From a virus: DNA of 26,817 bases. Below, piece after piece: positions 7,342 through 24,997 of the stretch (positions are counted from its first letter, which is position 1; every line of letters starts with the position of its first letter). The notes beneath the pieces were generated by a model. That model did not search any database. It was given only the letters and a program-made list of their open reading frames with translations, and was not told the DNA's origin. The DNA is taken from the IMG/VR virus record IMGVR_UViG_3300035698_007462, positions 1-26,817 of that record; one strand, given 5' to 3'. Position numbers and translations under genes: made by a program.

Positions 7342-8943
7342 TTAGTCAGGAACTATGCTACCCGCCCCTATAGAATCCAAAAGTGGATTTTTAATAGTAT
7401 TTACATTAGTTCCAGCAGGCGGAGGGGTACTCTTAGTATCCATATTTTTTATATTATCATTAAGTTCACGTATTGATATACTAAGATCCTCTATACTCAT
7501 ACGATAATTTGAATCTGATCCAGCTGTAACAAGAGGGATATCATTCAACATTGAATCTTCATTAACTGATTCCTTACTCCCAAATTTTTTAATAGATTCT
7601 TCAACTGACATCTCGTTTCCACGTGCTTGCTGCATTGCTTCTTGTTCATTTCGTTCCTGTATATGCGCTTCACGTTCAATATCATCCCCAGGTTTTGATA
7701 CTACATTTAAATTTTCATCGAGTATTATGCCATGCATTTGTTCCCATGCCATTTGAGTAGCCACCTTAGCACCTATTGATTCATCTTTTGCCCGTATTTG
7801 TAAAGCTCTAACATGTTCGGGAGTAAGATGCCCAGTACCCCGCGCCTGTGCCAATGTTGCCTTACTGGCTTCTTTTTGCAAATGTGTATGCGCATCCCCA
7901 CCCATCATATCAGAAATGAACTTTTGTTTACTAAGCCAATCCACTGCCAAAGTAGCTGCGTATGTGAACGCTACAATTGCAACAGTAGCAAGGTTAATCA
8001 TACTTCCAAAATTACGTATACCACCACCACCCGCGTCTTCGGTATCAATACCACTACCACTACCACCATGAGAAGACTCCAACATTTTTTTTGTCCATTT
8101 TGCTTTCATTGCTTTCCCATTAAAAAAATTAAATAATCCTGTTTCAATATCACCACCACGCCTACCCTCCCCTGCCCTATCCACTGCTCCCATAATAGAG
8201 GTATCTTCTGGTTCTATCTCCTGACGCTGAGTTTCCACACCAATATTTGTACCTGCCACGCCAAAAGCATTTTCATCTAATCGTTCTGCCATTATTTTTT
8301 GTTTATTTCGTTCCCTCCTCTGATACGGTCCAATACCGAACATATCTAAAGTGGCCGCCTTACCCACTGTTCCCGCAACAGTCTTAACCAGATCTAAAAA
8401 TTGTTTACCTTTTGATACTGGTTTAGTTATTTCTTTTGTTTTCTTTAAAAAGAGAACCTGCGCACTATCTAGATCTTCTAAACTTATTCCAGTTGTACGA
8501 GCAATTTGTTCAAAATTTTCAGATAAAGTTTCAGATATTTTTGTGGCGTCAGTAAAGAAAATAAATTCATCGTCTAATTCTGTTACCATATCTAGAAGTT
8601 TAAGACCATATTCCCGAGCCTTTACGATATCATTTGTTGAAAGTATCTTATCTATAAGAATAACTAATGAAGATATCTTAGAAAAAACACCACGCACACG
8701 CTTAATTTCCGCCGTTGCTCTTTTATACCTATCATATTTTGCACTTAACATGGTAAAGAAAGTACGAAAATCACCTGTGTAACGCTCTTTAATAATCTCA
8801 AGAGCCGTTTGGCCAACACCTGTAACTATACCAAAACCCTCATCCATCATCTGCTGTATTGAATTATTTGCAGTGGATTTTCTAGGTTTCATCATAGATC
8901 TGAATTTATCGATTTCAGAATCTCTCAAAGGTTCTCTGGCCAT
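7342..8943 (-). CDS. Candidate tail tape measure protein
   Basis: This is the longest protein (533 residues) between the tube/chaperone genes and the baseplate genes, where tape measure proteins lie. It is almost wholly helical, rich in charged residues and Gln, with long amphipathic stretches (residues 40-185). A Gly-rich break (GGSGSG at 293-298, GGGG at 305-308) leads to one hydrophobic segment at about 313-335 (INLATVAIVAFTYAATLAVD), a feature often seen in tape measures that contact the host membrane. The length is close to T4 gp29 (590), which implies a T4-scale tail rather than a very long one. Residues 458-462 are ESVNE, a pentapeptide repeated in other proteins of this window. The Shine-Dalgarno is GGAGG, 7 bases before the ATG. 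The alternative is another internal tail protein. Confidence 0.6.
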   Translation of the reverse strand: MAREPLRDSEIDKFRSMMKPRKSTANNSIQQMMDEGFGIVTGVGQTALEIIKERYTGDFRTFFTMLSAKYDRYKRATAEIKRVRGVFSKISSLVILIDKILSTNDIVKAREYGLKLLDMVTELDDEFIFFTDATKISETLSENFEQIARTTGISLEDLDSAQVLFLKKTKEITKPVSKGKQFLDLVKTVAGTVGKAATLDMFGIGPYQRRERNKQKIMAERLDENAFGVAGTNIGVETQRQEIEPEDTSIMGAVDRAGEGRRGGDIETGLFNFFNGKAMKAKWTKKMLESSHGGSGSGIDTEDAGGGGIRNFGSMINLATVAIVAFTYAATLAVDWLSKQKFISDMMGGDAHTHLQKEASKATLAQARGTGHLTPEHVRALQIRAKDESIGAKVATQMAWEQMHGIILDENLNVVSKPGDDIEREAHIQERNEQEAMQQARGNEMSVEESIKKFGSKESVNEDSMLNDIPLVTAGSDSNYRMSIEDLSISIRELNDNIKNMDTKSTPPPAGTNVNTIKNPLLDSIGAGSIVPD

Positions 8944-8945
8944 TA

Positions 8946-9188
8946 TTATCCTCCGGCTTCTTTACGAGCCTTAGCTTCATTTTTCTTTTGCAATACCAAC
9001 CTACTATGTATCCAACTATTATCCCTTATATCATTATTATCATAATCTGCTGTCGTCATATTAAGGTAATACAAGAGATCAAATTGAGTCTCCAGTATAG
9101 CGCTCAAGTTTTTTCCCATATGGAAGAAGTAATTCAATGCGAAAGGGTACGGGCAAAAAACCCGTACCTCCACATCTTGGGCATTCAT
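8946..9188 (-). CDS. Second tail assembly chaperone-like ORF, overlapping the zinc-ribbon gene in another frame
   Basis: This 80-codon frame overlaps the last 110 bases of the upstream gene (9079-9816) and continues to the tape-measure start. The first ATG at 9188 lacks a convincing Shine-Dalgarno, and the internal ATGs at 9119 and 9059 have none. The non-overlapping part is protein-like: KNLSAILETQFDLLYYLNMT, then SWIHSRLVLQKK and a Lys/Ala-rich tail. Two short overlapping ORFs between tube and tape-measure genes are the hallmark of tail assembly chaperones made by programmed frameshifting. Here a +1 shift (or equivalent -2) from the upstream gene would enter this frame. The overlap contains U6 and A6 runs and a perfect hairpin. 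It is either a frameshift extension or an independently started gene. Confidence 0.6.
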   Translation of the reverse strand: MNAQDVEVRVFCPYPFALNYFFHMGKNLSAILETQFDLLYYLNMTTADYDNNDIRDNSWIHSRLVLQKKNEAKARKEAGG

Positions 9189-9816
9189 ACCCAGATTCCA
9201 TCTTTACCCCGTGTTCAAATTTAGAATGAAATGCCCTAATAACCATCAAATCCTTTGTGGATAGATTTTCAAGATATTCAACATTTTCCCAAACACTCTT
9301 ATCATTAACCAACGTGAGTGCATATCTGTATAACCAAACACTCTGACCCTGTTTATCCATATCATTGATCTTCAACATGTCCGCTACTCTAAGCAGCCTA
9401 ACTTGTACGGCATCTCCAGATATAGGAAGTTTAAGATCATATGGTTCTTTGAAATCCTCTGGCAGTTCCACTATTTCCAAAGCAGAAAGATCAACATCAT
9501 AAATAGATTTCTGCCAACAATGTTCACATTCATAATCCACTGCGAATATTTTAGAATATGAATTAATAGCTTGCCATACCACTAAATACAATCTATCCCC
9601 AATAGTAAGATTGATTGGATCAATACCTTTCAACACACCCCTTAACACAGTAATAAACTTCTTTTCGAAGTTATCATTACTAATTTCAGCAATTAACTTT
9701 TCGTCTTTACCCTTAAAGGTTCTAATTTGTATCTGATCAGGGTTTTCCGCTAAATCAATATCTGGGTACACCAGACATTTGGAAGGGAAGGTTACTGTTA
9801 CTAAATTCTCTTGCAT
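9079..9816 (-). CDS. T4_baseplate/gp26-like protein with zinc ribbon; probable tail assembly chaperone
   Basis: This 245-residue protein resembles the T4 gp26 (T4_baseplate) type. An N-terminal strand region with IQIRTFKGKDEKLIAEIS is followed by the helix KKFITVLRGVLKGID and then LTIGDRLYLVVWQAINSY. A C-terminal part contains DLMVIRAFHSKFEHG. Two CxxC knuckles, C97/C100 (CEHC) and C212/C215 (CPRC), can form a zinc ribbon in which the long middle domain is an insert. In T4, gp26 is a minor factor in hub assembly. Position between tube and tape-measure genes points to an assembly chaperone. The Shine-Dalgarno is AAGGAG before ATG 9816. The 3' end overlaps the next ORF in a different frame. Confidence 0.75.
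   Translation of the reverse strand: MQENLVTVTFPSKCLVYPDIDLAENPDQIQIRTFKGKDEKLIAEISNDNFEKKFITVLRGVLKGIDPINLTIGDRLYLVVWQAINSYSKIFAVDYECEHCWQKSIYDVDLSALEIVELPEDFKEPYDLKLPISGDAVQVRLLRVADMLKINDMDKQGQSVWLYRYALTLVNDKSVWENVEYLENLSTKDLMVIRAFHSKFEHGVKMESGYECPRCGGTGFLPVPFRIELLLPYGKKLERYTGDSI
9146..9168 (-). promoter_or_regulatory. Perfect 8-bp hairpin with U6G loop in the chaperone overlap
   Basis: In the mRNA, GGUACGGG and CCCGUACC form a perfect 8-base-pair, GC-rich stem closing a UUUUUUG loop. An SD-like GGAGGU (plus positions 9166-9171) overlaps the 5' arm. It lies where both overlapping frames are open. In the upstream frame the codons are ACG GGU UUU UUG. A +1 slip of the Phe tRNA on UUU would continue in the downstream frame with UGC. 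The structure is seen directly in the sequence; a role in frameshifting or in repressing local initiation is inferred. Confidence 0.55.
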
Positions 9817-9854
9817 GGTACTCTCCTTTTCTTTTTGTAGGAGTAATATTACTA

Positions 9855-10100
9855 CTACGGCTTGATTAACGTCATCAAGATATTTCCTTTTGCCAAAGCT
9901 TTATTCATCATATCTACTGTGGTATTTGTTTTCTTAATGTATCTTCCTAATGCTTTGTTGGTAGGTGTCCTTAACTCAATCATATTATCATCTTCCACAA
10001 AGTTCGCAACCAATCGATTATTCATATCAGTGATCTGTGTGGTTATGACAGAAGTTTCATTAAGTTCTTTCCTACAATGTTCAATTAAATCCCTAAGCAT
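9855..10100 (-). CDS. Small helical protein between tube and chaperone genes, unknown function
   Basis: I do not recognise a family for this 81-residue protein. It is mostly helical and mixed charge (RDLIEHCRKELNETSVITTQ at the start, YIKKTNTTVDMMNKALAKG near the end), with one Cys and no membrane segment. It follows the second tube-like gene closely and has a weak AAGGAT Shine-Dalgarno. Proteins at this place in contractile phages are often small tail assembly factors, but nothing in the sequence identifies the role. A 12-base palindrome (AGTAATATTACT, 9842-9853) lies just after the stop. Confidence 0.72.
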   Translation of the reverse strand: MLRDLIEHCRKELNETSVITTQITDMNNRLVANFVEDDNMIELRTPTNKALGRYIKKTNTTVDMMNKALAKGNILMTLIKP

Positions 10101-10112
10101 ATTTTATCCTTT

Positions 10113-10658
10113 TTATCCAAACCATTCATATTCAATTTTATCAACAGAAAACTCAATAGCAACAGTAGTCAAATCTTCATTCGCGTAATTTAAGTTATAT
10201 TTCGGAAAAGTTACCGGGAAACAACCGATCAATTTGTACCTGCCGAATGCTATTCCTGTTGAATCCAAGAATCTAACATAAATATCTTTTTGATAATTAG
10301 ATTTAATCTTAAACAATCCTTCTGTATCAACAATCAAACCTTTCCAAGCATTAACGTACGCGGATACAGCATCGGGCATTGTTTTGACAAAAGTTATACG
10401 AATTTTATCCACAGTCAGCATACCCGCAAAATGAGCTTCATAGGGACCAACGCGCATAATATTAGCGGCATTCATACTATAATCACCAAACTGCACATCC
10501 CGTACTAATTGAGCCAATCCAAAGCCCATCAAACCGCCGAACTTGCCGCCACCGCTCGCACTCATCTGAATATCCGGCAATAACACGTCCCAGAGATAAT
10601 TTCTCTGGAAACGTGCCTTGCCTAAAATCCAATCAACTGGTACGCTTATTCCCGGCAT
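10113..10658 (-). CDS. Second tail-tube-fold protein (gp19-like paralogue)
   Basis: The frame is open from a GTG at 10679, but the ATG at 10658 is the better start. It avoids an overlap, lies just after the upstream TAA (10661-10663), and has GAGGT 9 bases upstream, while the GTG has no Shine-Dalgarno. The resulting 181-residue protein starts MPGISVPVDWIL. It has tube-fold traits shared with the preceding gene: an early NYLWDVLLPDI strand matching TYLWEVVVPVP, a central DKIRITFVKTM strand followed by AVSAYVNAWKGLIV (compare VFDAIQSWQQLIV), and a C-terminal Y-K-L-I-GCFPVTFP strand. The Gly-rich GGGKFGGLMGFG insert is unusual. It could be a minor tube subunit, a tube-baseplate or tube-terminator adaptor, or a second tube protein. 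Confidence 0.72.
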   Translation of the reverse strand: MPGISVPVDWILGKARFQRNYLWDVLLPDIQMSASGGGKFGGLMGFGLAQLVRDVQFGDYSMNAANIMRVGPYEAHFAGMLTVDKIRITFVKTMPDAVSAYVNAWKGLIVDTEGLFKIKSNYQKDIYVRFLDSTGIAFGRYKLIGCFPVTFPKYNLNYANEDLTTVAIEFSVDKIEYEWFG

Positions 10659-10660
10659 TT

Positions 10661-11176
10661 TTAAGTTACCTCTTCCCACGTATCAAACGCGAATGTAACT
10701 CCATAGCTAACTGTTCCATCCGTTGCATAAGACATTGCAACCTTACCAATGTTCTGCACCCAAGCACCACGCAACTTGATCTTCATGTAAATAGCACCGG
10801 CAGTTGTGATAGTGGTAAGATACACATCACTTTTATAAAGAGGATCGCCAACACCAATTCCTGTAGTATTGTTTACGATAAGTTGCTGCCAGGATTGAAT
10901 GGCATCAAATACCTTCTTATCCTCACCTTCAATGAACGTTATCGCCCACTGCTGATCATACTTCAATTTCCCTGCAACCTTAATCCCGGCAGTTTGCTTA
11001 AATGGTATTAAAATTTCACCATTACTTCTACCAGGAATTTCAGCCGACTGGGCTCTGATTGTAAAAGTATCAGAATCCCCATCCCCTCTAGGAACAGGAA
11101 CTACTACTTCCCACAAATACGTTCTTGCCGGATTTGTAAGATTACTTTTTAATGAATCTAGCCCCATAAGTGACAT
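10661..11176 (-). CDS. Tail tube protein, gp19-like
   Basis: In this 171-residue protein the pattern is that of T4 gp19-type tube subunits: an N-terminal NPARTYLWEVVVP strand, TIRAQSAEIPGRSNGEILI, the K-Y-D-QQWAITFIEGEDK strand, the helix KVFDAIQSWQQLIV, and a C-terminal strand IKLRGAWVQNIGKVAM ending in VTFAFDTWEEV. Length matches gp19 (163). It follows the sheath gene, the conserved sheath-tube order, and has a perfect AAGGAGG Shine-Dalgarno, as expected for a highly made subunit. A second tube-fold gene follows immediately. Confidence 0.92.
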   Translation of the reverse strand: MSLMGLDSLKSNLTNPARTYLWEVVVPVPRGDGDSDTFTIRAQSAEIPGRSNGEILIPFKQTAGIKVAGKLKYDQQWAITFIEGEDKKVFDAIQSWQQLIVNNTTGIGVGDPLYKSDVYLTTITTAGAIYMKIKLRGAWVQNIGKVAMSYATDGTVSYGVTFAFDTWEEVT

Positions 11177-11204
11177 ATTAAATCCTCCTTATTTATAAAC
11201 TTGT

Positions 11205-12821
11205 TTACAGGTTGTATCCCCTGGCAATAAGTTCATTGAAATTAGCACCTGTTGTAGTAACGATAACCTGCAATTGTATGAACTCGGCCACCCTTATAGG
11301 TTTAACAAATACATCAACGTGAAGTTCATTACGATCAATAGTATCAGGAGTATTGTTTGTTTCATCACAAACAACCTGGTATCCTTTTTGATCATCCGTT
11401 GTCATCTGGAATGCACCGGCCCCACTTAATGTATCTAAATAATTATCCAACATTGCGGTAACTCTAAACCGCGTATTCTCATCATTCGGTTCAAACACAA
11501 ATGATCGTAAAGATATTGCCATTGCTTTTTCAATAATAATAAGCAATCTACGAACATTCACACGATCAAGAGCCGAAGCAGTTGTTGCTTGAGTTTTCTG
11601 ACCCCAGATAACATTTCCCGATCCAGGAAAGATCTGTAACGGATTGATCCCTGCCGGATATAATGTATCCCGTTCTCCTTGTGAAAAGGCCAATCGTGTT
11701 CCATTAACATCCACAATACTAAGAACATTCATAATACCCCTATTCAAACCTGCAGGAGCACTCCATACATTACGGATATAATCTGTGTATGCATATTGAG
11801 CGCCAACATACCCAGAACCCGCCACAGTAGTCAAAGTTGAATTATACGGATCATATATCGAAACCAATGGAGCGTACAAAGCAACATAACTAGAATTAAT
11901 ATTCTGTGTAACATTTCTCCACGTAACCATTGATGCCACAGACGTTGTTTCAGCTGGATCAATGTTTAGAATAGCCATACAATCTTTTCGTGTTTCTGCC
12001 ACTGATTGCATTTTCAACTGAACAGCTACCGAAAAGAATCCAGCTTCAACTAGAATACGAACATCAACATCATCAGGATTAATAAATAGATCCCAACCAG
12101 CAATCAACTGAGCATCTGCAATTGCACCACCATCAGATCCTTCTGCAAATGTCAATGCAGTATCCTGTGCCTTTGGAAGAACAGAATCCACCTGTGTTGC
12201 ATCATCCGCAACTACAATGTAATCACTAAATCCATTGATTACTGTTTCCATATACTGTTGTCTTCCATAACCATCTAATTGTGTTTTTCTAGAAACTGTC
12301 CAGGATTCTTGTCTAACATTTGTTCCATTAGAATCCAATTGATAAACATCAATCACAAAAACAAATAAAGCATCATTTGTAGTTGTTCTGGTGATAATAA
12401 TACTCAGGTCATTGTTCCATATACCTGGATTCACACCATAAATATTTAACAAATTGTCTTCACCAGAAACATCCACAAAATCAGGACTTGTTACACCCGA
12501 TGAGATTGCGGCATTTGCCTGAACACTATCACTTGTTTTAATCTTAACACCACCATACAATGCAGTATTCTGAGCACGATAACACCATAATTGATTTCCT
12601 GTTTCTAAAAATGCCAAAGCAGCATAATGAAAATCGTTTCCAAGTACTGGTTGACCATATTCAGCGATAAACTGCTGTGTATTTGTAATCAACCTGATCT
12701 GCGTAGTATCACCCTTTGCTGAATAACCAACAATAGCCGCAGTGGTTGTCGCAATTGTCGGCACAATGTTACTCAAATCAAGTTCTCGCGTGTAAACACC
12801 TGGGGATAAGTAAAAACTCAT
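11205..12821 (-). CDS. Tail sheath protein, gp18-like
   Basis: This 538-residue protein starts with the diagnostic sheath signature SPGVYTRELDLSNIVP followed by TTAAIVGYSAKGDT. The tail has the usual domain I-IV features: a DVDVRILVEAGFFS segment, NPLQIFPGSGNVIWGQKT with RVNVRRLLIIIEKAMAIS (the conserved C-terminal sheath helix region), and a final V-D-V-FVKPIRVAEFIQLQV strand. These subunits form the contractile outer tube. The start has an excellent AAGGAGG Shine-Dalgarno and overlaps a possible 27-codon ORF as ATGA. The tail tube gene follows. Confidence 0.96.
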   Translation of the reverse strand: MSFYLSPGVYTRELDLSNIVPTIATTTAAIVGYSAKGDTTQIRLITNTQQFIAEYGQPVLGNDFHYAALAFLETGNQLWCYRAQNTALYGGVKIKTSDSVQANAAISSGVTSPDFVDVSGEDNLLNIYGVNPGIWNNDLSIIITRTTTNDALFVFVIDVYQLDSNGTNVRQESWTVSRKTQLDGYGRQQYMETVINGFSDYIVVADDATQVDSVLPKAQDTALTFAEGSDGGAIADAQLIAGWDLFINPDDVDVRILVEAGFFSVAVQLKMQSVAETRKDCMAILNIDPAETTSVASMVTWRNVTQNINSSYVALYAPLVSIYDPYNSTLTTVAGSGYVGAQYAYTDYIRNVWSAPAGLNRGIMNVLSIVDVNGTRLAFSQGERDTLYPAGINPLQIFPGSGNVIWGQKTQATTASALDRVNVRRLLIIIEKAMAISLRSFVFEPNDENTRFRVTAMLDNYLDTLSGAGAFQMTTDDQKGYQVVCDETNNTPDTIDRNELHVDVFVKPIRVAEFIQLQVIVTTTGANFNELIARGYNL

Positions 12822-12901
12822 GCTAATTCCTCCTTAATTATTTGTTTTTTATGTACCATTAAAAATCCATACCTTTCTTTTTTTAGAGTATGTTTTGTCA
12901 T
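12818..12901 (-). CDS. Possible 27-residue leader ORF coupled to the sheath gene
   Basis: The 87-base gap before the sheath gene is fully open in one frame: ATG at 12901, 27 codons, then TGA overlapping the sheath ATG as ATGA. The peptide begins MTKHTLKKERYGFL and ends IIKEELA; it is basic and has no known relative to me. TAGGA (the upstream stop plus GGA) lies just before the ATG. The sheath Shine-Dalgarno AAGGAGG lies inside its last codons, so translation of the leader would affect access to it. It could equally be an untranslated leader that is open by chance, as it is short. Confidence 0.3.
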   Translation of the reverse strand: MTKHTLKKERYGFLMVHKKQIIKEELA

Positions 12902-12908
12902 ATATTTC

Positions 12909-13577
12909 CTATGGTGTTGCTGTAATAATATATTCATCTATTAATGTATCTCGGTAATTTGGGCTAGTTCCTTCTCTTACGTATAGATCCAGAATGATCG
13001 TCAATATTGTCTTTGTAGTTATTGACGTTAATACCCAGCCTTCCAATGTTATCGGAAACTCATACACGAAATACTGTCCTTTTTCATAAATATCATAATT
13101 TGTTTTATCTATGATAGGACCAAACTTCATATACATATCCATTTCATACACACCATTGTAATAAAGAACAAGATTTGGTGTATCATGTTGCCATGATAAA
13201 TATGATTCTGCCGCGTGCATAATCCAATCTAAATCCCTACTCCACAACAAAATTTTATAATTTATCTTTGCAGGAACGGCCTTGATGGTAATGATCTGTG
13301 CTTTAGAACCACTATCAACATATTGCATTGTCATTCCACGTCTGGCCAATGTGGATCTCTGCCGTTCCCAATCAAATTCAATACCCTCACGCCAGATACT
13401 AATAAATTCAACTGTTCCTTCACCCCTTTTTTCTGCAATCTTTCTTTGTGCTATTCTTTCGGGATAAAATACAATATCTTTGTTAGAATCATCTATATCC
13501 AGAAACGGACTGAACTTAGTGAAGACCAGTGATTCCATTCCCTTATCCATTGTGCTTATGAAAGAAGTAGCGGCCAT
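12909..13577 (-). CDS. Probable tail terminator / sheath-stabiliser-type protein
   Basis: This 222-residue protein lies immediately before the sheath gene, the place of gp15-type tail completion proteins. It shows GEGTVEFISIWREGIEFDW early, a central NYKILLWSRDLDWIMHAAES helix followed by YLSWQHDTPNLVL, and a C-terminal YEKGQYFVYEFPITLEGWVL. Proteins with this L-W-S-x-D-L-D and GxYFxYxxPIxxxGW pattern recur beside sheath genes of large contractile phages, in the tail terminator or neck-tail joint position. No signal peptide or membrane span is present. The start overlaps the previous stop as TAATG. Specific homology to T4 gp15 is not proven. Confidence 0.68.
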   Translation of the reverse strand: MAATSFISTMDKGMESLVFTKFSPFLDIDDSNKDIVFYPERIAQRKIAEKRGEGTVEFISIWREGIEFDWERQRSTLARRGMTMQYVDSGSKAQIITIKAVPAKINYKILLWSRDLDWIMHAAESYLSWQHDTPNLVLYYNGVYEMDMYMKFGPIIDKTNYDIYEKGQYFVYEFPITLEGWVLTSITTKTILTIILDLYVREGTSPNYRDTLIDEYIITATP

Positions 13578-13810: not shown

Positions 13811-13811
13811 A

Positions 13812-14859: not shown

Positions 14860-14876
14860 TCGAACTCCAATACTAT

Positions 14877-15005: not shown

Positions 15006-15006
15006 A

Positions 15007-15501: not shown

Positions 15502-17549
15502 TACTTTATCTCCTTTTTCTTGTCAGTAACCTTTTTCTTGTTTTTCTTTGAAAACTTCTTAGCCTTCATATCATCAACGAATTTCTGTTGTTTAGCAGAC
15601 ATCTTTTTACCTTTTTTCTCTGCGGGGCATTTTTCACCAGCTTGTTTTCTTTTTCCATCTTTACCCGCCATAGCAGAACCGGCAAAAGGACCAGTACCAT
15701 CTCTTTTTCCCGGAACACTTTTACCTTCTTCAAGATCTTCAAGATGTTCCGCGACCAATAATCTTTCCGCCATTTCCAATGTTTCCTCATCAGAGAATTC
15801 AGGCTGTTCTTCATCGGTTAAAAATAATTCATCACCAAGCATAGGATCTTCACCAGGTTCTAACGCCAATGGATCTCCACCAAGATCATCCAAAGGAAGT
15901 TCAATAGTATCAGCCTTTGACGTTGTAACAGTTGTTGAATCACCATCCGAAGAAACATCAATTTTATTACCATCATCAGTAGACACAGAAACATCAACAC
16001 CTTCTTCAACTTCTTCCTTTACTTCAACTTCTTCCTTTACTTTCGTAGTACCATCAACCATTGGTGCAGGTTTTGCTGTTCCATCAGTAGCTTGTTTCTT
16101 TGCTGCTGATTTATTAACATCACTCTGTGCAGCACTTTTTCCTTCTGGCCCCTGATCTTTGGTAATATCAGTGGCTACCTGTTGTGCGGCCTGATCAGTG
16201 TGTGCTTTATGAGTAGAATCTGATTTCGTAACAATCTTCTGGGCATTACTAATACTCTGTCCGGCTAAATCATCGGTTGGTATTGTTGCTGCTGTTTCAT
16301 CCATTACCTCAGAATCTTCTTCTTCTTCCTCTTCATCATTTTCTTCAGCATCTACAAATGCCCCACCGCCATCATCTTCTTTTACAAATACAGATTCATT
16401 ATTAGAACTATCCCAAGTTAGGTTTAAGTCACCCATAACTTTAATAACTTCTTCTGGAGATACTTCTTCATCACGTAAATTCCATACCACTCGTTTACCA
16501 CTGCCGTTTACTTGAACACAGTACATTGCTTTATTATCAACTTGAATAATATAAAATACAGTACCGTTAGTATCATAGTTTCTCAAAAGTCGTGCGCCTT
16601 CTTCACCTCTTGCCGGACACCAAGGTGATCCTTCGGCATATTTTTGAAAATCTTCAGCAGTATCTATTTTTATTACTTTAACATTACCTTCATCATGTAA
16701 AATTTGTGCTTCTTTTACAGATTCCCGAGCAGCAGAACCGGGAACAATACCTGCCGAACCATTAGCACTTTCCTGAGCATTTGTCTTTACTGACCACAAC
16801 TTTGAATCAGGATTTTGAACAGCAATACCATTGTTCTTCTGTGCTAGATCTCGTGCAACACTTTCTTCACTAATACCATCGGCAATAATCTCACCGTTGT
16901 TATCATTACTATCAAATTCAGCTAAATCCTGAATATAATCTTCGGCATTATCAACATTATTAAGATTAGCAGGAAGTTTTCCTTCTTCAGTCTTAATGCC
17001 ACCGACTTTCACACCTCTATTTTTTGCAGTATTCTTGTCACTTGTTTTCTTAATACCCGCAGAAGTTTCAAAATCAGACTTCTTATCAACACCGGGTGTT
17101 TCCTTATCCATTTCTTTCTGGATTTTGGAAAGTTCTGGTGTGTCAGTTTGCCCAGCACCGTCTGTTTTAATGGCAGGATTGTCACAAGGATCTTTAGCAT
17201 CCTTTTTCTTCTTCGCTTCTTCAACCTCATCTTCTTTCAAAGATTGAATTATTTCTTCTGGATCATCAACGTTATTCAGATTAGGATATAACTTTCCTTC
17301 TGATACATCCCTACAATCAAGACATTTCATACCATACTCATCTTCAAAGTTTGCTTTAGCTTCTTCCGCAGTAGCAACATTAAAAATATCCTTTATACTA
17401 CCCGCACTGCATTCCCATGCCTTTGATTGTTCAGATACTTGAGTTTCACCAACAGTTTTGTATGCCTTATCGGTAGCCTCAAATAAACTTTCATTTGTTA
17501 CATCCTTTTGAATGAATTTAAATAATTCATATGGATTGATATCTGACAT
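15501..17549 (-). CDS. Large acidic modular protein with WC-type domain, probable internal virion protein
   Basis: This is a 682-residue protein, very rich in Asp/Glu (E-run at 406-411) with a strongly basic C-terminus (KKNKKKVTDKKK). Residues 84-106 and 189-211 are near-copies: EGKLYPNLNNVDDPEEIIQ and EGKLPANLNNVDNAEDYIQ. Residues about 285-380 form a folded domain with EGSPWCPARGEEGARLL, NGTVFYIIQV and YCVQVNGSGKRVVWNL. This resembles the W-C-T/I-A domain seen in several large-phage and conjugative proteins. Residues 614-660 carry KRDGTGPFAGSAMAG and KMSAKQQKFVDDMKAKKF. The perfect Shine-Dalgarno GAGGAGG is partly inside a hairpin. No enzymatic assignment is possible. The position after head genes suggests a capsid-internal or core protein. 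Confidence 0.8.
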   Translation of the reverse strand: MSDINPYELFKFIQKDVTNESLFEATDKAYKTVGETQVSEQSKAWECSAGSIKDIFNVATAEEAKANFEDEYGMKCLDCRDVSEGKLYPNLNNVDDPEEIIQSLKEDEVEEAKKKKDAKDPCDNPAIKTDGAGQTDTPELSKIQKEMDKETPGVDKKSDFETSAGIKKTSDKNTAKNRGVKVGGIKTEEGKLPANLNNVDNAEDYIQDLAEFDSNDNNGEIIADGISEESVARDLAQKNNGIAVQNPDSKLWSVKTNAQESANGSAGIVPGSAARESVKEAQILHDEGNVKVIKIDTAEDFQKYAEGSPWCPARGEEGARLLRNYDTNGTVFYIIQVDNKAMYCVQVNGSGKRVVWNLRDEEVSPEEVIKVMGDLNLTWDSSNNESVFVKEDDGGGAFVDAEENDEEEEEEDSEVMDETAATIPTDDLAGQSISNAQKIVTKSDSTHKAHTDQAAQQVATDITKDQGPEGKSAAQSDVNKSAAKKQATDGTAKPAPMVDGTTKVKEEVEVKEEVEEGVDVSVSTDDGNKIDVSSDGDSTTVTTSKADTIELPLDDLGGDPLALEPGEDPMLGDELFLTDEEQPEFSDEETLEMAERLLVAEHLEDLEEGKSVPGKRDGTGPFAGSAMAGKDGKRKQAGEKCPAEKKGKKMSAKQQKFVDDMKAKKFSKKNKKKVTDKKKEIK

Positions 17550-17559
17550 TATTATTCCT

Positions 17560-17593: not shown

Positions 17594-18484
17594 TTAATTT
17601 AACTCGCCCAAATCATCAATGACATCCAGGATGTTATTGAATAATGCTGGCTTAAACATTTCCCCAATTGGAAATACCATATCCTTTACAACTTTGATAG
17701 TACGATACGATTCTAGTTCGTCCAGCACATCCTGGGATTCTATATAAATCGAATTGGTGGCAATCATTCCCATATTCACAGTAAATTCAGATATCAATAT
17801 AATACCTTCATACTCACTTTGAATTCTGCAACCTACCAAATAATCATATTCTTGGAAAGGTTCAAACGCATTCAAAGGTCGGTCATCTTGGATTGTTTTA
17901 ATTATCATTTCTAAGGTACCGATATCATCTGAGTGAATATTTTGGATTCTCTTCGCCAATCCCCGGATACTTTTATCATATGTATTAAGTTGTATTGCAA
18001 CCTGCCCGCTCATTGGCAAGAATTTTGAATTCGTAAATACTGATAACCAATAATTCATCAACACCAAGGTTCTTTTTACCTGGCGATTTTCCCGCATATC
18101 AATGGTAAGCACATGAGCGAGCCTATCATAGAGTTTATGAATATTTTCCGATCTGGCTTCATTGATCATTTCCGCAAGGTCAATTCCTTTTTTGCCCTTG
18201 ACTGTAATAACCTTTGTATTGAATTCATCATACGCCAATCTCGGAACCACAATACTCAAAGCGTCCTCAAACATTACATGGAAATCATCATCCTGTTCCA
18301 GTACTTTGATTTTCCATTTTTTCTTGACAGGGGCAAGCGCCCTGATCATATTCTTTGTGTTGGCAAAACCACCTGGCAAATATGCCACAGATGGATTACC
18401 CATCCCCGTTGTACCAGCAACCATACCACCCGTTGTGGCTTCTTCATTTAATATTCTATCGGCTAACAATTCGAAATCACTCAT
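17594..18484 (-). CDS. Unknown protein, probable head or neck component
   Basis: The frame is open from a TTG at 18511, but the ATG at 18484 with GGGGA 7 bases upstream is preferred, giving about 296 residues starting MSDFELLADRILNEE. The first 40 residues are Gly/Thr-rich. The remainder is a compact mixed fold with KKKWKIKVLEQDDDFHVMFE, DMRENRQVKRTLVLMNYWLS, then FLPMSGQVAIQLNTYDKS and KDMVFPIGEMFKPALF. There is no membrane segment, signal or zinc site. The short FELLADRILNEE opening recurs in proteins of large phages near head genes. It overlaps the preceding gene by 8 bases, consistent with coupled expression. I do not recognise a family. Confidence 0.75.
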   Translation of the reverse strand: MSDFELLADRILNEEATTGGMVAGTTGMGNPSVAYLPGGFANTKNMIRALAPVKKKWKIKVLEQDDDFHVMFEDALSIVVPRLAYDEFNTKVITVKGKKGIDLAEMINEARSENIHKLYDRLAHVLTIDMRENRQVKRTLVLMNYWLSVFTNSKFLPMSGQVAIQLNTYDKSIRGLAKRIQNIHSDDIGTLEMIIKTIQDDRPLNAFEPFQEYDYLVGCRIQSEYEGIILISEFTVNMGMIATNSIYIESQDVLDELESYRTIKVVKDMVFPIGEMFKPALFNNILDVIDDLGELN

Positions 18485-19718
18485 CCCAGGGTCCCCAGTT
18501 TTGTTGTTCAAGAATTATTTTTACCATTTCGGCACGTGTATATCTTTGTTCTTCCTTTGCACCCACAAACCGTTCATACGCATCCCAAGGCAACTTTTTA
18601 TCCCATACAGGATCATAAATCATTTTAATGTCATGCCCATGATGTGTTTCAGTATTTTCTACCCACGCATGCCCGATGGTTCTTCCACCTTCCACTTGTT
18701 CAGTAATCGTTCCATGAATCAAGTCCCACTCAAGATTATTCATTACATATTTACCCGATAATGAATAACAATTCCCCAATCTTTCTTTAAAACTATCTTC
18801 ATTAACTGATTCATTAGGCGTATAGTGGCCTTTTCTACCCTTATCCTTTACTTTAGGGTTATCCTCCGGTTCAATCTGTAAATTTGTAATCCCCGGTTTC
18901 GTTCCTCTTACCGGCAATTTGGTAGCACTTTTAGTCGCAGAAGACGGCCCAATATTTTCTGGTGGTTCATCATCATCCGGGGTGGGTGGTTCTTCATCCA
19001 CATCTATATCTTCTCCCGGCTCTTCTAGTGGCTCATCTCGCCCGTATGGACCCCTAGTGGATTTGGCAGTATCATATGCCATCTTTTTTAATTCATCCCC
19101 TACTGCCCCAAATGCAGCCTTCTGTGCAGTAAAGGCTTCAACAGCGTTATCCACATCATCAGACCAATATTTCTTTAGAAATGAGGCAAAAGTTGACGTA
19201 TAGTTCGGTAAAACACTCGCCATGAGCTCTGTATGCTTACAATACGCCCCGTATTGCCTAGGATTCCTGATATTTGGAGGCCTATTTTCTTGCCGCCCGA
19301 ACTGAGCATCCCTTTGGGTCTTAATATATGCACCGCCCCAATATAAATCAGCCGGACAGGAACAACTGAACTTCATATCCACACTATTCAGTATTTCGGC
19401 GGCCAAAAGCGTGTATTTAGGACCTGATTTATCCTTTTTCCACAAACTCTGATCCCCAGCGTATTTCTTGATCATTTCAGGTATATTAGTGAATTCCACG
19501 TAAACATCGTACTTTACGCCCTCTTTTGTGCCGGATGTAACGGTAAAATGCCAAAAATCAGGCATCATTTCACGCATCTCAACCCCACCCTTTGATGCAA
19601 CGGTTTTAACCCGCTGCCCAAACTCAGGAAACAGTTTTCCAATAGACTTTTGCTTAGTTCTAAGCCTATTGAAATTGATTTCGTTCATAACATGTTCAAC
19701 ACAACTGTTAATTGACAC
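18477..19718 (-). CDS. SWIM-type zinc-finger protein with C-terminal Cys/His/Asp domain
   Basis: This 413-residue protein starts at GTG 19718, which has GGAGG 8 bases upstream; the next ATG has no such site. Residues about 115-165 contain KFSCSCPADLYWGGAY ... YGAYCKHTE: C119, C121, C160 and H162 form a SWIM-type zinc finger (CxC...CxH). An acidic Pro-rich linker follows (228-300). After ESVNE (303-307) comes a domain with NCYSLSGKYV (C317), TIGHAWVENT (H350) and MIYDPVWD (D369), the residue order of papain/transglutaminase-like cysteine enzymes. Related Cys-His-Asp domains occur beside phage structural genes with unknown role. No catalytic activity is demonstrated. It lies between the candidate neck genes and other probable virion proteins. 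Confidence 0.78.
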   Translation of the reverse strand: MSINSCVEHVMNEINFNRLRTKQKSIGKLFPEFGQRVKTVASKGGVEMREMMPDFWHFTVTSGTKEGVKYDVYVEFTNIPEMIKKYAGDQSLWKKDKSGPKYTLLAAEILNSVDMKFSCSCPADLYWGGAYIKTQRDAQFGRQENRPPNIRNPRQYGAYCKHTELMASVLPNYTSTFASFLKKYWSDDVDNAVEAFTAQKAAFGAVGDELKKMAYDTAKSTRGPYGRDEPLEEPGEDIDVDEEPPTPDDDEPPENIGPSSATKSATKLPVRGTKPGITNLQIEPEDNPKVKDKGRKGHYTPNESVNEDSFKERLGNCYSLSGKYVMNNLEWDLIHGTITEQVEGGRTIGHAWVENTETHHGHDIKMIYDPVWDKKLPWDAYERFVGAKEEQRYTRAEMVKIILEQQNWGPWDE

Positions 19719-19977
19719 TTAATCTACCTCCGGGAAAACCCATTGCCTGTAATTCATCTTTTAATCTAGCATTATGATCAATCTGTACTTCAATAAACAT
19801 AATATCAGTACCAGTGAGCTCTTCGTTATTTTCTAATTTCTTTTTAATAAGATCGATCATAGCATCCTGCCATTCAGGTGTACCAAACCCATATTTCTGG
19901 GCAAGATCAAAATAATCACTTTCTTCTGTGATACATGCTTCACTAAGATCACGTAATTGATTAATCAAGTCCTTCAT
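19708..19977 (-). CDS. Small acidic helical protein, unknown function
   Basis: The frame is open from 20004, but the ATG at 19977 is the likely start, since it overlaps the upstream TAA as TAATG and has a strong AGGAG 6 bases upstream. The 89-residue product starts MKDLINQLRDLSEACITEES, continues YGFGTPEWQDAMIDLIKKKL, and ends GFPGGRLSVN. It is helical and acidic, with no membrane segment. It overlaps the next gene by 11 bases. No family is recognised; its position after the candidate neck protein suggests a small head or connector component. Confidence 0.75.
   Translation of the reverse strand: MKDLINQLRDLSEACITEESDYFDLAQKYGFGTPEWQDAMIDLIKKKLENNEELTGTDIMFIEVQIDHNARLKDELQAMGFPGGRLSVN
19727..19731 (-). 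promoter_or_regulatory. Shine-Dalgarno supporting a GTG start
   Basis: GGAGG in the mRNA lies 8 bases before the GTG at 19718. The first in-frame ATG (19688) has no such site, so GTG is the preferred start of the SWIM-finger protein. Confidence 0.65.
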
Positions 19978-20918
19978 TAGAATCTCCTCGCGAATGTAAG
20001 CCAACGACCCTCATCCCGTAGTGTCGCTTCCAATTCTTTCTTCTCAGTTTTACCCTCATCATACATTTGCTGACCATCATTCTTAATATCAATCGCCATT
20101 GTCTTCCGTAAGGCATTTCCTTCAACCATTTTCACCAAAGCTTTAATGTAATACAAAATCCATTGAAGCATATGTTCACTCTTTACATTTTCAAAATAAG
20201 CATAGTTTGTTGTGATTATGCCATTACCTGCCCAACCAGTTACTGTCCAAGCTCCTGTATCATAATCAAGTGTTCCACTGTACCCAGATTGGTCACAATT
20301 TAGTATACCTTCCCCATCATCTGTAAAAGTGGTAGTACCGTTTGTCATTGAAAAAGTATCAGGATCTAAAGGAAAGAAATCAAGTATGCCAGAGAGGCTG
20401 GTATTCACACCACTTGAATGTTCAAGAATATATTCAACAGGTCCGTTAATGATTCTTTTTGTTCCCACAACACAAATAGATGTTGTCTGTGATGGAAGTT
20501 GCTGCATATATAATGCCCCACCAACTGCGGGATCATCAGATCGTTCAAAATGCCAACTAAAGTCTGAACCAATATAATATTTATAATTACGATAAGCTTC
20601 TGATAACATAACCAAATCAGAAGTAAGATTATCTATGATCGTGATACCCAACAAAGACCACATAGGAAAATTTTGTAGAACCCAATCAGGCACAGTCGCA
20701 GGATATACTTTAACAACTGACTTATAATCAGGTGTTAAATATATTCTACTTGTTGCAATGCCTGCGTTTTCAAACATCTTAACAATAGGCATGGCAGAAT
20801 GTGTATTCCAATAACGATATGCATTATCAACAATCTGCGTAATGGTTTCATTTGGAGTTGCTAATGAAATAGGTTGAAACTCTTGATTCACCCAATTAAG
20901 AATATCAGTTTTTAACAT
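19977..20918 (-). CDS. Probable neck/head-completion protein (gp13-like position)
   Basis: This 313-residue protein is next after the capsid gene. The start MLKTDILNWVNQEF and then ETITQIVDNAYRYWNTHS, with a tail LQWILYYIKALVKMVEGNALR and LEATLRDEGRWLTFARRF, resembles adaptor or neck proteins of contractile phages, in which long terminal helices bracket a beta core. Length matches T4 gp13 (309), but homology is not certain. Residues about 172-242 are a beta module, with TTTFTDDGEGILNCD, SGTLDYDTGAWTVTG and ITTNYAYF, that resembles segments of the capsid and baseplate proteins in this window. The ribosome site is weak (AGAAAG), and the gene lies behind a strong hairpin, suggesting lower expression than capsid. 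Confidence 0.7.
   Translation of the reverse strand: MLKTDILNWVNQEFQPISLATPNETITQIVDNAYRYWNTHSAMPIVKMFENAGIATSRIYLTPDYKSVVKVYPATVPDWVLQNFPMWSLLGITIIDNLTSDLVMLSEAYRNYKYYIGSDFSWHFERSDDPAVGGALYMQQLPSQTTSICVVGTKRIINGPVEYILEHSSGVNTSLSGILDFFPLDPDTFSMTNGTTTFTDDGEGILNCDQSGYSGTLDYDTGAWTVTGWAGNGIITTNYAYFENVKSEHMLQWILYYIKALVKMVEGNALRKTMAIDIKNDGQQMYDEGKTEKKELEATLRDEGRWLTFARRF
19984..19988 (-). promoter_or_regulatory. Shine-Dalgarno fixing the start of the 89-residue gene
   Basis: AGGAG in the mRNA lies 6 bases before the ATG at 19977, inside the 3' end of the upstream gene. It supports the TAATG-coupled start over the longer frame from 20004. Confidence 0.65.
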
Positions 20919-20954
20919 AATGTTTTCTTTCTATTTTCATTTTATTCCCTTACA

Positions 20955-20978
20955 GGGGAGAGAATTTCTTCTCTCCCC
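20955..20978 (-). promoter_or_regulatory. Perfect 10-bp hairpin with GAAA loop after the capsid gene
   Basis: In the mRNA, GGGGAGAGAA and UUCUCUCCCC form a perfect 10-base-pair stem closed by a GAAA tetraloop. It lies in the 82-base gap following the capsid stop. No U-tract follows on either strand, so a classical Rho-independent terminator is unlikely. A 3' stabiliser, processing site or expression step-down is more plausible. The stem is certain; the role is inferred. Confidence 0.6.
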
Positions 20979-21000
20979 CCTCCCCATATACTGAGTTCAG

Positions 21001-22458
21001 TTATACAATAACTAAACTACCGTGAGTGTACATACCACTATTAACAACCTTATACCCGGCTGATGCAAGAAAGCCCTTCTGCGCTTTCAAGTCAGCAGTA
21101 ACAAGTGTTGGGGTCGAGAACAACGGAATATACGGAGCAAACAAAAATCCAGCAAACAGATAATTGTCACCCTTGAAACCAAACAATATTTCTGTAGCAC
21201 CTAACAACGGATCGTGAATAACCAATCTGCCATCAAGAGTTCCTAACTCGTATGGTCCAGTAGGAACAAGAGTGTTTAACCCAGGAGCGGGCACGAAATT
21301 CGGTGCCAACTGACGGACCAAACGAGCAGTGTCATTACCAACAACTAAGAAATTACAAACAGCACGTAACGTCTTGTTGATGATATTAACATTGGCTTTT
21401 TCAACGAAATCCAAGAACTGGTATTTCTTCCATACCCATGCCTCACCCGTTGAAGGGGTTGCCGTGTACGTACCAGGACTCGTTGCTGCATCACCTGTTT
21501 GTGAAGCGGTATTCATTAAATCAATACCCAAGTGATCCATCGTGAACTTAACTTCACCGCCTAAGTACTTAACCAACTCATCCTCTAAATTCAAACCGTG
21601 TGCTTTTTCCAAATCGATCGCAGCACCCAGTGTAAATAAGGCTTTGAGTGGGAAATCTTCGGCAGTAATTGTCGAAGATGTTACGGCAATATTAACTTCA
21701 GGAACATTTGCAGTTGTAACACCTGCAGCGCCACCCGTTTGCCAATCATACTTATAATTAACAGTAGAACTAGCGTACAGGGTTGTATCTACGGTCCAAA
21801 CACCTGTTGCAAGAACAACAGTACCAGCATCACCAGAAGTAGATCCCGTTAATACGTCAGTACCACCAGAAGTAGAAGTAACGGTATAAGTTTCACCCGT
21901 TGTTCCATCTGTAATAACCACGGTACCCGTAACAACCGGGAAATACCCTAATGTACCCGTAGTCGTTGCTGCAATAGATTCACCAGTAACACGAACAGAA
22001 GCATATTCACGCCCACCAACAGTTTTATTGTGGCCTAATTTCGCGTCCATCATATTAGTGGCAGCAGTAACACTACCCTTGCTAGAACCATACTTAACAT
22101 CCAAATAAAACACAGCACCAGAACGACGATCAAGTGCTTGAGTAACTGCTAATTTGTTAAGAACCAAACTAGGCAGCAACGCAGCAATAACCGGCAACTG
22201 AATACCTAAAAACGAAATCGCACTAGAATCCGTTGTTTCAAAGATACTAGAACGAGATTTAATACCACCTTCTAATAACGCATTTTCAAGACATCGAGCA
22301 ATGTTTCTCTTATCGTTTTCTGTAATAGATTTTCCTTGTTGCTTGAAATAACTATCCACAGAATTGATATGAGGCGCCCAAGCTTGAGTCAGACGATTGC
22401 GATCAGCCGACATAGCAGCCAAACGCGACTCAACTAAACCTTCAATTCCCTTACCCAT
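21001..22458 (-). CDS. Major capsid protein, gp23-like (HK97 fold)
   Basis: This 485-residue protein has the T4 gp23-type layout. An N-terminal helical region (residues 1-75) probably forms the propeptide. The core starts GIQLPVIAALLPSLVLNKL and RRSGAVFYLDV, which match the gp23 segment before the HK97 N-arm. Later come NPRQ-free core parts typical of the family: FTLGAAIDLEKAHGLNLEDEL, FLVVGNDTARL, then HDPLLGATEILFGFKG, FAPYIPLFSTP and KGFLASAGYKVVNSGMY. Residues about 168-240 are a Thr/Gly-rich beta insertion (TYTVTSTSGG, GTVVLATGVWTVDT), plausibly an insertion domain on the capsid surface. Candidate protease sites before the core include LLEGG (61-65) and SITEN (45-49). It has a strong GAGGAG Shine-Dalgarno. 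Confidence 0.94.
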   Translation of the reverse strand: MGKGIEGLVESRLAAMSADRNRLTQAWAPHINSVDSYFKQQGKSITENDKRNIARCLENALLEGGIKSRSSIFETTDSSAISFLGIQLPVIAALLPSLVLNKLAVTQALDRRSGAVFYLDVKYGSSKGSVTAATNMMDAKLGHNKTVGGREYASVRVTGESIAATTTGTLGYFPVVTGTVVITDGTTGETYTVTSTSGGTDVLTGSTSGDAGTVVLATGVWTVDTTLYASSTVNYKYDWQTGGAAGVTTANVPEVNIAVTSSTITAEDFPLKALFTLGAAIDLEKAHGLNLEDELVKYLGGEVKFTMDHLGIDLMNTASQTGDAATSPGTYTATPSTGEAWVWKKYQFLDFVEKANVNIINKTLRAVCNFLVVGNDTARLVRQLAPNFVPAPGLNTLVPTGPYELGTLDGRLVIHDPLLGATEILFGFKGDNYLFAGFLFAPYIPLFSTPTLVTADLKAQKGFLASAGYKVVNSGMYTHGSLVIV

Positions 22459-22489
22459 GATATTTTTCTCCTCTTTAACTTAATTAATG

Positions 22490-24997
22490 TTATACACCAA
22501 AATGCTTAAGTGCTGTTCCTACCTTTTTACGAAGTGACGTCATAGCCGGATTAGGATCAGATTGTGATTCCATAACGATCTCAGAGATACCATTAGCAGA
22601 TTGTACTATGTTCTCTCGTATAGCGTTTTGGGTTCTCCTAATGAGACTATCAACTTCTTCTACCGTCCTACATGCTTCTAAAAGTGTTAGAGACGATTCT
22701 GGTAAATGAAGCCCCATACTTTTTGTTTTCATACTAACGTAAAAACTAATTAAATCCTTCTTGTGTGCTTCTTGGAGAACATTTGCCTCCTGTTCATACT
22801 TCTCCGTAATTTCTTTACGGTCTTTTTCTTCTTCTTCTTTAATAGATTTAATTTCTAATAAATGAGAATCTTTACTTTTTTTAGTAGATTCATTCAATTT
22901 ATTTAATTGTTTAGTTAATTTACCTATATCTATTGTTAGGGATTCAGCCACCTCAGTTTTTTGTTTTGACTGAGTCTGCAATATTTTTACCTGATCATGC
23001 AGTTCTTGAAATTGCTCAGTTATTTCCCGCATTTTAATGGTGAAAGCCATCATATCTTTTCCATAACTTTCCACTAATCGATCTCGTTCAGCAGTAATTA
23101 CCACAAGCCTTTCTGACATCTTTTTAAGTGACTTATTTCTGATCATGCCCGAAGGTTTTGCCTTCTCGTTGTTCCTTGTGGTTACTGCTGAAATATTGCC
23201 TTTAGTACTTTCCATATTAGTAACATATGTATCAGCAATGCTCTCGTCAATCTTAAATACCTTAACAATATTATCCACTGCATCAGAATGACTATGAAAG
23301 TTACCCCAATTATCAGTTAAGAATTGATTCGTTTTTCTTTCAAGGTTTTCTTTCATTTGAACATCTGATAGAGGAACATATATATCTGCTCTAATGGAAT
23401 TGACATTTACAAGTAATCTACTCTTACCAATTTTCTGTATAGTTCCATCAGAAGCAACTCTCCCCCATTCCTTATTGTCTGTATCAATATGTACCTTATC
23501 ACCAACCTTAAATTTACCACGTAATTCATTTAACTTATGTAAGTCAGCAATCTTAATCATATCTGATTCTTTAACTTTAGTTTTCTTCTTCTTTTTAATC
23601 TTCTTAGTTTTCTTGGAAGATTTATTAACCACTACCTGTGCTGCCTTGGCGTCTGCGGGTTGACCACAAAGATCAGAAGTTGATATAATCTTTTTCTTTT
23701 CATCTACATCAGAAAAAGACATAAGACATTCTTTTGAACAGAATGATCCATCTTCTGCATCCCATTCTTTTTTAGCTGGTTTTCCACATACCTTACATTT
23801 CTTTTCTTCTACCACTTTTTTTTCGTCTTCTACATTCTCATTTACTGATTCAAAAACTCCAGCATCGATTAAATCTTTTTTACTATATTTCTCTACATTA
23901 TCACCACTAAAAACAGATAATGTTGTACCATCCCAATCCCAATCATCCATATTCTCTGTTGTATCAGATAACCAACTTTGAATTTTATCTAAATTTACTT
24001 GATTTTCATTTACTGACTCCTTTGTACCCATATCCTCCACCAATTCTTCCATACTACTAATGAACTTACTATATTCACTCGCATCACCCTCACCATCTTC
24101 AATCTCTATCTGTGTTAAACTCCATAATTCAGTAATTTCTGCTTTTAATTGAGGGTACTTCTTTACCATTTCTTGCCCTTTTGCTAAAGCCTCTTCCTTA
24201 GACGATTCTTTTATGGGCAACCTATCTTCGACTTTCTTAACAATTTCATTTACTAATTCATCAACAGGCATACAAGTAAGACATTCTTTTTCAGATGTCT
24301 CAACAGTACAATTTTCAGACTGTACATCATTCTTAATTTTTTCCAAAAGTGCAACGGCTTCTGGGTTATACAATCTTTCTAACAAAACAGTAGCGTACTG
24401 CCGATCAATCTTCTTATCATCCAACCCAGTCTTAATAACTTGGGTAACATCACGTTCTACCGTGATAGGCAATTCTGATCCAAAAGTACTGGGATCGGCA
24501 GTAAAATCAATAGTCACAAACCGATAACTTTCCGGCACAACCCTTTGATAACTACCACCCGCTTCATCCAAAGTTTCTTCCAGTTCACCATCCGCTCGGG
24601 TTGAGACACCAATACCACACCCCGCGCGAAGCAATGTATCAACGATTCTTCCATAAGGTGTATCAAGAACTTCCATTACAGCATAAACCTTATGCTTATC
24701 CTCACTCAAGATCATTTCAGTAACTACCCCAGCAACCTTTTCTGTATTACTCTGCGTTGTACTAGGATGTTCTGCGTGGAAAAATAGAGATTTATTTTCC
24801 AGCTTAGCAGTAATATCAGGGTCAGCAAGAACCTTATCCCACACAGCCTTTTCATAAACCCTATTATTCCGATTCTTTTCCCCAATAGAACAAATCTCAT
24901 ATTTCGCCCGACACAAGATCGCATCATTCTTGTCACTGGCATGCTCCAGGATCTGTCCTTTCGTTATAAATGATTCTACAATTTGTGTAGGCTTCAT
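22490..24997 (-). CDS. Prohead protease (gp21-like) fused to a zinc finger, barrel and coiled-coil scaffold-like tail
   Basis: The frame opens at 25003, but ATG 24997 has AGGAG 7 bases upstream while 25003 has it only one base away. Numbering here is from 25003 (837 residues). Residues about 25-200 are a gp21/S78-type protease, with NRVYEKAVWDKVL, FHAEHPS (H79), YAVMEVLDTPYGRIV, CGIGVSTRADGE (S134) and TIDFTADPS. The following regions are unusual: ESVNE at 329-333 and 385-389 bracket a short domain; a C403/C406/C422/C426 zinc finger (CKVC...CSKEC) is TRASH/MYM-like; a poly-Lys patch lies at 464-478; and a KOW/SH3-like barrel (490-550) contains KFKVGDKVHIDTDNKEWGRV. Residues about 625-760 form a long coiled coil. 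The gene precedes the capsid gene, where protease and scaffold are expected. Confidence 0.88.
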   Translation of the reverse strand: MKPTQIVESFITKGQILEHASDKNDAILCRAKYEICSIGEKNRNNRVYEKAVWDKVLADPDITAKLENKSLFFHAEHPSTTQSNTEKVAGVVTEMILSEDKHKVYAVMEVLDTPYGRIVDTLLRAGCGIGVSTRADGELEETLDEAGGSYQRVVPESYRFVTIDFTADPSTFGSELPITVERDVTQVIKTGLDDKKIDRQYATVLLERLYNPEAVALLEKIKNDVQSENCTVETSEKECLTCMPVDELVNEIVKKVEDRLPIKESSKEEALAKGQEMVKKYPQLKAEITELWSLTQIEIEDGEGDASEYSKFISSMEELVEDMGTKESVNENQVNLDKIQSWLSDTTENMDDWDWDGTTLSVFSGDNVEKYSKKDLIDAGVFESVNENVEDEKKVVEEKKCKVCGKPAKKEWDAEDGSFCSKECLMSFSDVDEKKKIISTSDLCGQPADAKAAQVVVNKSSKKTKKIKKKKKTKVKESDMIKIADLHKLNELRGKFKVGDKVHIDTDNKEWGRVASDGTIQKIGKSRLLVNVNSIRADIYVPLSDVQMKENLERKTNQFLTDNWGNFHSHSDAVDNIVKVFKIDESIADTYVTNMESTKGNISAVTTRNNEKAKPSGMIRNKSLKKMSERLVVITAERDRLVESYGKDMMAFTIKMREITEQFQELHDQVKILQTQSKQKTEVAESLTIDIGKLTKQLNKLNESTKKSKDSHLLEIKSIKEEEEKDRKEITEKYEQEANVLQEAHKKDLISFYVSMKTKSMGLHLPESSLTLLEACRTVEEVDSLIRRTQNAIRENIVQSANGISEIVMESQSDPNPAMTSLRKKVGTALKHFGV

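Follow-up and report, generated by a model that had tools for sequence, protein, structure and literature searches.

The ESVNE linker of an uncultured T4-type myovirus: a candidate prohead-protease site between head-cargo modules

Why does one pentapeptide, ESVNE, recur in three different proteins of a single virus fragment? The question is raised by the window analysed here, the whole 26.8-kb virus record IMGVR_UViG_3300035698_007462, in which open reading frames (ORFs) were called mechanically. The record covers part of the genome of an uncultured T4-type myovirus; profile searches identified a gp23-like capsid protein (ORF 21001-22458; Pfam, 2e-29) and also a tail sheath gene among the genes of the window. 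Judging from the sequences, it is probable that ESVNE-type linkers are cleavage sites at which the encoded gp21-like protease would free head-packaged modules from polyproteins, the copy in a tail protein being excluded. Three features of the relatives point this way: [LIVM]-x-E/A in repeated linkers (a slash marks a predicted cut throughout), propeptide-like N-termini on separate proteins and concentration of the motif in the head and cargo region. The comparison used 15 fetched contigs, related or linker-bearing (G001-G015); the members of the group are all uncultured and known as fragments. The nearest relative, G001, has a capsid protein 83% identical to that of the window.

The four ESVNE copies in the window

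Four copies of ESVNE were found where the original prediction had placed them (Table 1), all on the minus strand, in frame and coding, and the peptide was present in no other reading frame of the window. When residues were shuffled within each protein, at most 0.01 copies were expected, confirming that the count is above chance; no pentapeptide ever exceeded three copies in 200 such shuffles. ESVNE was also the sole pentapeptide occurring at least three times in the window. The copies at 7558 and 18798 had been described as near-identical in DNA. They do share an exact match of 18 nucleotides, but this is weak evidence for copying, because codon usage predicts nearly as much: codon identity among the four copies was 0.67 against an expected 0.55, and one pair was fully codon-identical against 0.2 expected. 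All four copies have a Val that fits a cut after the second Glu, and the stretches TPNESVNEDSFKER, GTKESVNENQVN and GVFESVNENVED span predicted linker cuts after the final Glu. A cut after the first Glu (E/SVNE) was less likely, because the P3 position of that cut is hydrophobic in just one copy out of four and most linkers of the relatives lack the E-S part. T4 gp22 reads SIFE/SVN at residue 24 (L096 44118-44927), an echo of ESVN(E) that counts for the earlier cut; the same protein has an ESTITE/S string near residue 223.

Table 1. Coordinates of linkers, domains and candidate processing sites in the window
Feature	Coordinates	Strand	Basis or remark
ESVNE, residue 458 of tape-measure-like tail protein (ORF 7342-8943)	7558..7572	-	probably not a maturation site
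Shared 'GSPWC' cargo-type module after ESVKE	16350..16709	-	
ESVKE/A linker variant before 'GSPWC' module of 682-residue internal protein	16710..16724	-	motif scan
LFE24/A, candidate N-terminal processing site of 682-residue protein	17478..17486	-	sequence inspection; predicted
SWIM protein	ORF 18477-19718	-	
Extra C-terminal SWIM module, residues 308-413	18477..18797	-	in none of the relatives
ESVNE, residues 303-307 of SWIM protein, predicted cut VNE307/D	18798..18812	-	junction with extra C-terminal module
IFE74/T, candidate processing site of gp23-like major capsid protein	22237..22245	-	predicted
Protease-scaffold fusion protein	ORF 22490-25003	-	
Scaffold-like coiled-coil C-terminal domain, residues 557-837	22490..23335	-	conserved in relatives; long helices in model
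Variable insertion zone, about residues 242-556, with both ESVNE copies and Cys-rich module	23336..24280	-	four-relative alignment
ESVNE, residues 385-389 of fusion, predicted cut VNE389/N	23837..23851	-	insertion zone; segment 385-400 below pLDDT 50
ESVNE, residues 329-333 of fusion, predicted cut VNE333/N	24005..24019	-	insertion zone; segment 325-337 below pLDDT 50
gp21-like prohead protease domain, residues 1-241	24281..25003	-	Pfam, PHROGs, catalytic columns
MKKLLEKYDLME/A, internal module start	26422..26457	-	matches N-terminus of separate 61-residue G005 protein
ESKVTE/E linker variant at contig edge, truncated polyprotein	26791..26808	-	ORF open at 5' end

Two copies lie in the fusion of protease and scaffold. 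The protease domain matched the Peptidase_S77 profile (PF03420, 3.8e-7, 30.2 bits with a cut-off of 27) and the head maturation protease family phrog_207 (6.4e-24), and its putative catalytic His79, Ser134 and Asp166 share alignment columns with T4 gp21 and the relatives examined. A PDB sequence search with this domain gave chance-level matches only. The gene neighbourhood is that of an S77 protease, fused to a scaffold-like domain and adjoining the Gp23 ORF, and the L/I-x-E consensus of this peptidase family is present at the linkers. The zone between protease and scaffold could not be aligned among the relatives, and the insertion of the window is missing from them. AlphaFold placed a small module between the two segments of low predicted local distance difference test (pLDDT) score that contain the ESVNE copies; the model of the fusion is weak (mean pLDDT 55).

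The SWIM protein carries the third copy. Its orthologue in G001 stops after ...KGKYKPNE, whereas the window reads ...KGHYTPNE-SVNED and continues into a new module of 106 residues; ESVNE therefore stands exactly at the fusion junction. In the AlphaFold model residues 221-306 were disordered and secondary structure returned from residue 307, with the module itself below pLDDT 50. No match to this module was found in 50,697 phage records or in viral contigs. It shows a Cys-His-Asp pattern, GNCY...GHAWVE...YDPV, which resembles a papain or transglutaminase fold.

The fourth copy behaved otherwise. A position between recognisable modules had been proposed for every copy; this held for three, whereas no boundary was found at the copy in the tape-measure-like protein, and the motif was missing at the aligned position in G001, G003 and G007. 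The motif density of the tail region equalled background, and a tail protein is not expected to meet the prohead protease. This copy does not fit the processing explanation, is left outside it and is probably not a maturation site.

The linker family in related contigs

The group shares a linker, E-S-(x)-[LIVM]-N-E, of which ESVNE is one spelling. A 955-residue multi-module protein of G001 has ESVNE twice, each time just before DIFKGAS (ESVNE/KDIFKGAS and ESVNE/KDKDIFKGAS). The same architecture was found in G002, with VFKAAS or VFKAAG repeated after sites such as IVNE/A, SVRE/A, KINE/A and SVSE/A. The cognate linkers VFKAAS and IFKPPT are also the N-termini of tandem small proteins: separate small proteins of G002 and G015 start MSFEKDITEIKKMVE/AEEPVFKAAS, and ten genes of G004 start MKKLLESLLE/QDIFKPPTEEEL or near it, with Gln rather than Ala after the Glu (MKKLLESLLE/Q). 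At 39550-47840 of G004 and nearby, the tandem small proteins have a common N-terminal leader, and one that was scanned had leucine-rich-repeat matches; the string LTSLEGAPKYVGG is repeated throughout this contig.

FKAAS-type linkers numbered 51 in four genomes, 28 of them N-terminal on separate proteins and 23 internal. [LIVM]-x-E stood two to five residues before the string in 47 of the 51, against a background of 15%, and Ala came next in 28 of those 47. Cleavage at the predicted position would leave the conserved second half of the linker, [VI]F[KR]-x-x-[ST]-x-E-E-[LV]-x-x-R, as the new N-terminus. Pfam domains agreed with the linkers: in G003, sites at 14 and 245 flank His_Phos_1 (23-219), and in G004 the start of DUF7249 coincides with ESIKE; apart from this edge case, the domains contained no site.

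E-S-(x)-[LIVM]-N-E occurred 19 times in 254,000 residues, the top count among 60 permutations, of which the next reached 7 and the mean was about 2. When the broader form was scanned (N, S, T, R or K at the Asn position), 34, 8 and 3 copies were found upstream of the capsid gene, from capsid to sheath and in the tail region, or 0.46, 0.18 and 0.04 per 1000 residues. The reversed motif had no such gradient in the same three regions (10, 6 and 7 copies; 0.13, 0.13 and 0.09 per 1000). The density of the linker upstream of the capsid gene is some 12-fold that in tail genes, and the contrast is conservative for cargo because the upstream class includes some terminase, portal and non-structural genes. 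The enrichment scan across related genomes that the original prediction had proposed thus placed the motif in the head and cargo region and not evenly over the genomes. In cultured relatives, the stretches around the capsid genes had the motif at 0-0.11 per 1000, and the T4 stretch had it at 0.14.

Readings of the linker and known systems

The linker is best explained, by analogy, as a repeated form of the T4 capsid-targeting propeptide. Established features of T4 and giant phages include Glu-directed gp21-type maturation, capsid-targeting propeptides and multi-site scaffold cutting (PMC9026906, PMC5694885, PMC10052503), and T4 gp21 cleaves after L/I-x-E (PMC9026906). The gp21-cut capsid-targeting sequences (CTS) of T4 IPI, IPII, IPIII and Alt are alike in being short N-terminal leaders that end in [LIVM]-x-E, with Ala as the usual next residue, and that belong to a variety of small proteins from genomes which also encode a gp21-type protease; IPII and IPIII start MKTYQEFIAE/A in the T4 record. 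Leaders of 10-19 residues ending in [LI]-x-E/A were found on the tandem small proteins of G002, G004 (Gln for Ala) and G015, a definition that does not apply to internal copies such as the ESVNE of the window. Unlike in T4, sites are found here inside chains of up to 2266 residues as well, a conserved FKAAS-type half follows the cut, and the protease is fused to the scaffold with modules inserted between them.

If the linkers are cut, the head-interior proteins would be strings of small modules, each junction carrying [LIVM]-x-E, often within E-S-(x)-[LIVM]-N-E. Scaffold-binding N-terminal peptides would carry these strings into the prohead, some strings being fused straight to the protease-scaffold protein, and the protease, once active there, would cut after the final Glu (SVNE/D, SVNE/N). 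The modules, once separated, could act alone or leave with the DNA on ejection. Cleavage, packaging, ejection and module functions are steps that we infer. For maturation cleavage by the encoded gp21-like protease, as originally predicted, the relatives lend good support at three of the four copies.

A linker that served recombination only, as a short flexible sequence for swapping or duplicating modules without proteolysis, is an unlikely account. The idea of a shared recombination linker stood in so far as linkers are points of module duplication and fusion: in G003 a 234-bp unit that starts at the linker FDLNE is exactly duplicated in tandem (possibly an assembly error), the SWIM fusion junction falls at ESVNE, and the same modules occur as standalone proteins and within polyproteins. 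However, recombination alone is insufficient, because the peptide was conserved despite randomised codons. The 17 VFKAA copies of G002 had a codon identity of 0.39 where 0.39 was expected, and the linkers of G015 were likewise at the expectation from codon usage in their synonymous codons; the peptide was kept while the codons drifted, indicating that selection acts on the peptide and not on the DNA. Moreover, the letters that are conserved match the T4 protease consensus, and the linker also stands at protein N-termini, where a junction is unnecessary. Cleavage and recombination both seem to act at the linkers. Still less probable are scaffold-core docking peptides like the T4 CTS, several per chain and uncut internally. 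The N-terminal versions do have CTS-like amphipathic helices (MSFEKDITEIKKMVE, MKKLLESLLE), and the LLEKFDLNE-type motif was present only upstream of the capsid gene (10, 0 and 0 copies in the three regions). Internal copies, however, mostly retain [LIVM]-x-E/A and drop the upstream helix, whereas docking would keep the reverse.

The least probable account is chance recurrence in low-complexity linkers rich in Glu, Ser and Asn. The stretches that hold the copies are indeed charged and disordered, the context of the tail-protein copy is not conserved, and a boundary test over whole proteins was negative: across all proteins, shared segments began near [LIVM]-x-E at a rate of 0.332, no enrichment over the 0.322 of random positions. 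Yet composition-keeping shuffles, permutation and reversed-motif controls reproduced neither the count nor the head bias. The boundary result also weighs on protease cleavage, although it speaks neither for nor against it because the set was mixed with tail proteins and endonucleases. Other points weigh against cleavage as well. One of the four window copies is in the tail protein; the P1' residue of the window copies is D or N rather than Ala, and these copies have no FKAAS half; and the AlphaFold models are of low confidence (mean pLDDT 50-55). Four of the 51 linkers have no [LIVM]-x-E, the 51 are mutually related and so not independent, and [LIVM]-x-E, a weak motif, also arises by chance.

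Among known systems, phiKZ gp175 and SPN3US gp245 (peptidase S80) resemble the proposed scheme in that a diverged gp21 homologue processes head and ejection proteins at several Glu-directed sites (PMC9026906, PMC5694885, PMC10052503). They differ in consensus (S-x-E and A-x-E) and in that propeptides are removed; besides its self-cleavage, SPN3US gp245 cuts off N-terminal propeptides and does not produce strings of separate modules. The polyvalent proteins of phages and conjugative elements are strings of small domains in one chain, with proposed transfer into the host and separation by embedded peptidases (MPTase) (PMC5512222). Small domains are shuffled between proteins here too, occurring alone and in polyproteins. 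Polyvalent proteins rely on in-chain peptidases, whereas the sites here fit the head protease; searches with Pfam and PHROGs showed no embedded peptidase in the polyproteins for cargo from G001, G002 and G003, and the known polyvalent signature domains looked for were not found. Bacillus phage SP-15, Listeria phage LIS04 and Maribacter phage Molly_1 likewise encode a gp21-like protein beside gp23, which is called a protease in the LIS04 annotation, scaffold plus protease in that of Molly_1 and hypothetical in that of SP-15. These proteins have 432-568 residues, against 611-1545 with an insertion zone here, and the motif is at background there. The proposed head-cargo scheme would also resemble the polyprotein cutting of many RNA viruses. 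Searches of an open-access library turned up no description of head-cargo polyproteins in which prohead-protease sites recur internally, which does not prove that none exists.

There is perhaps an even chance that an uncultured T4-like clade encodes its head cargo as polyproteins, in which shuffled and possibly early-acting modules are packaged as one chain and the maturation protease cuts standard linkers in the prohead. With standard linkers between modules, new cargo could then be added as a cassette of linker plus module. If true, this would be a polyprotein strategy driven by the capsid protease in a DNA phage, and it would provide a sequence rule for finding head-packed, probably injected proteins of uncultured phages, most of which have no recognisable domain. 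Because the linker would mark module edges, each piece of cargo could be delimited from sequence and assayed by itself, for instance as an anti-defence factor.

Other linkers, modules and side observations

Variants of the linker were found elsewhere in the window (Table 1). The 'GSPWC' module after ESVKE is common to the window and to a G004 protein (42402-44318) that starts MKKLLEFLIE. In the truncated polyprotein at the contig edge, residues 121-171 matched residues 1-57 of G005 21780-21965 (46%, 9.8e-8), and its C-terminal module also ends the 2266-residue polyprotein of G003 and is standalone in G002, G004 and G010. Neither the C-terminal module of ORF 25426 nor the cargo of G002 had a match in 50,697 phage records.

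The candidate IFE74/T site of the capsid protein was invariant in four relatives and adjoins the Gp23 domain, which starts at residue 87. A search of 84,980 genomes of bacteria and archaea for capsid relatives, which might have hinted at the host, found none. The gp23-like capsid gene is broken into two or three ORFs in G007 (the L036 contig, 30252-33995), G013 (47786-49980) and G009 (3844-5660), which suggests introns or inteins with homing endonucleases; an insertion of intron or intein type is annotated in the same capsid gene of Bacillus phage SP-15. G003 has a portal-like gene (5460-8396) with an insertion resembling an intein plus an endonuclease part. The same contig encodes, at 45310-63517, putative tail-fibre proteins with very long collagen-like GYSGIS repeats.

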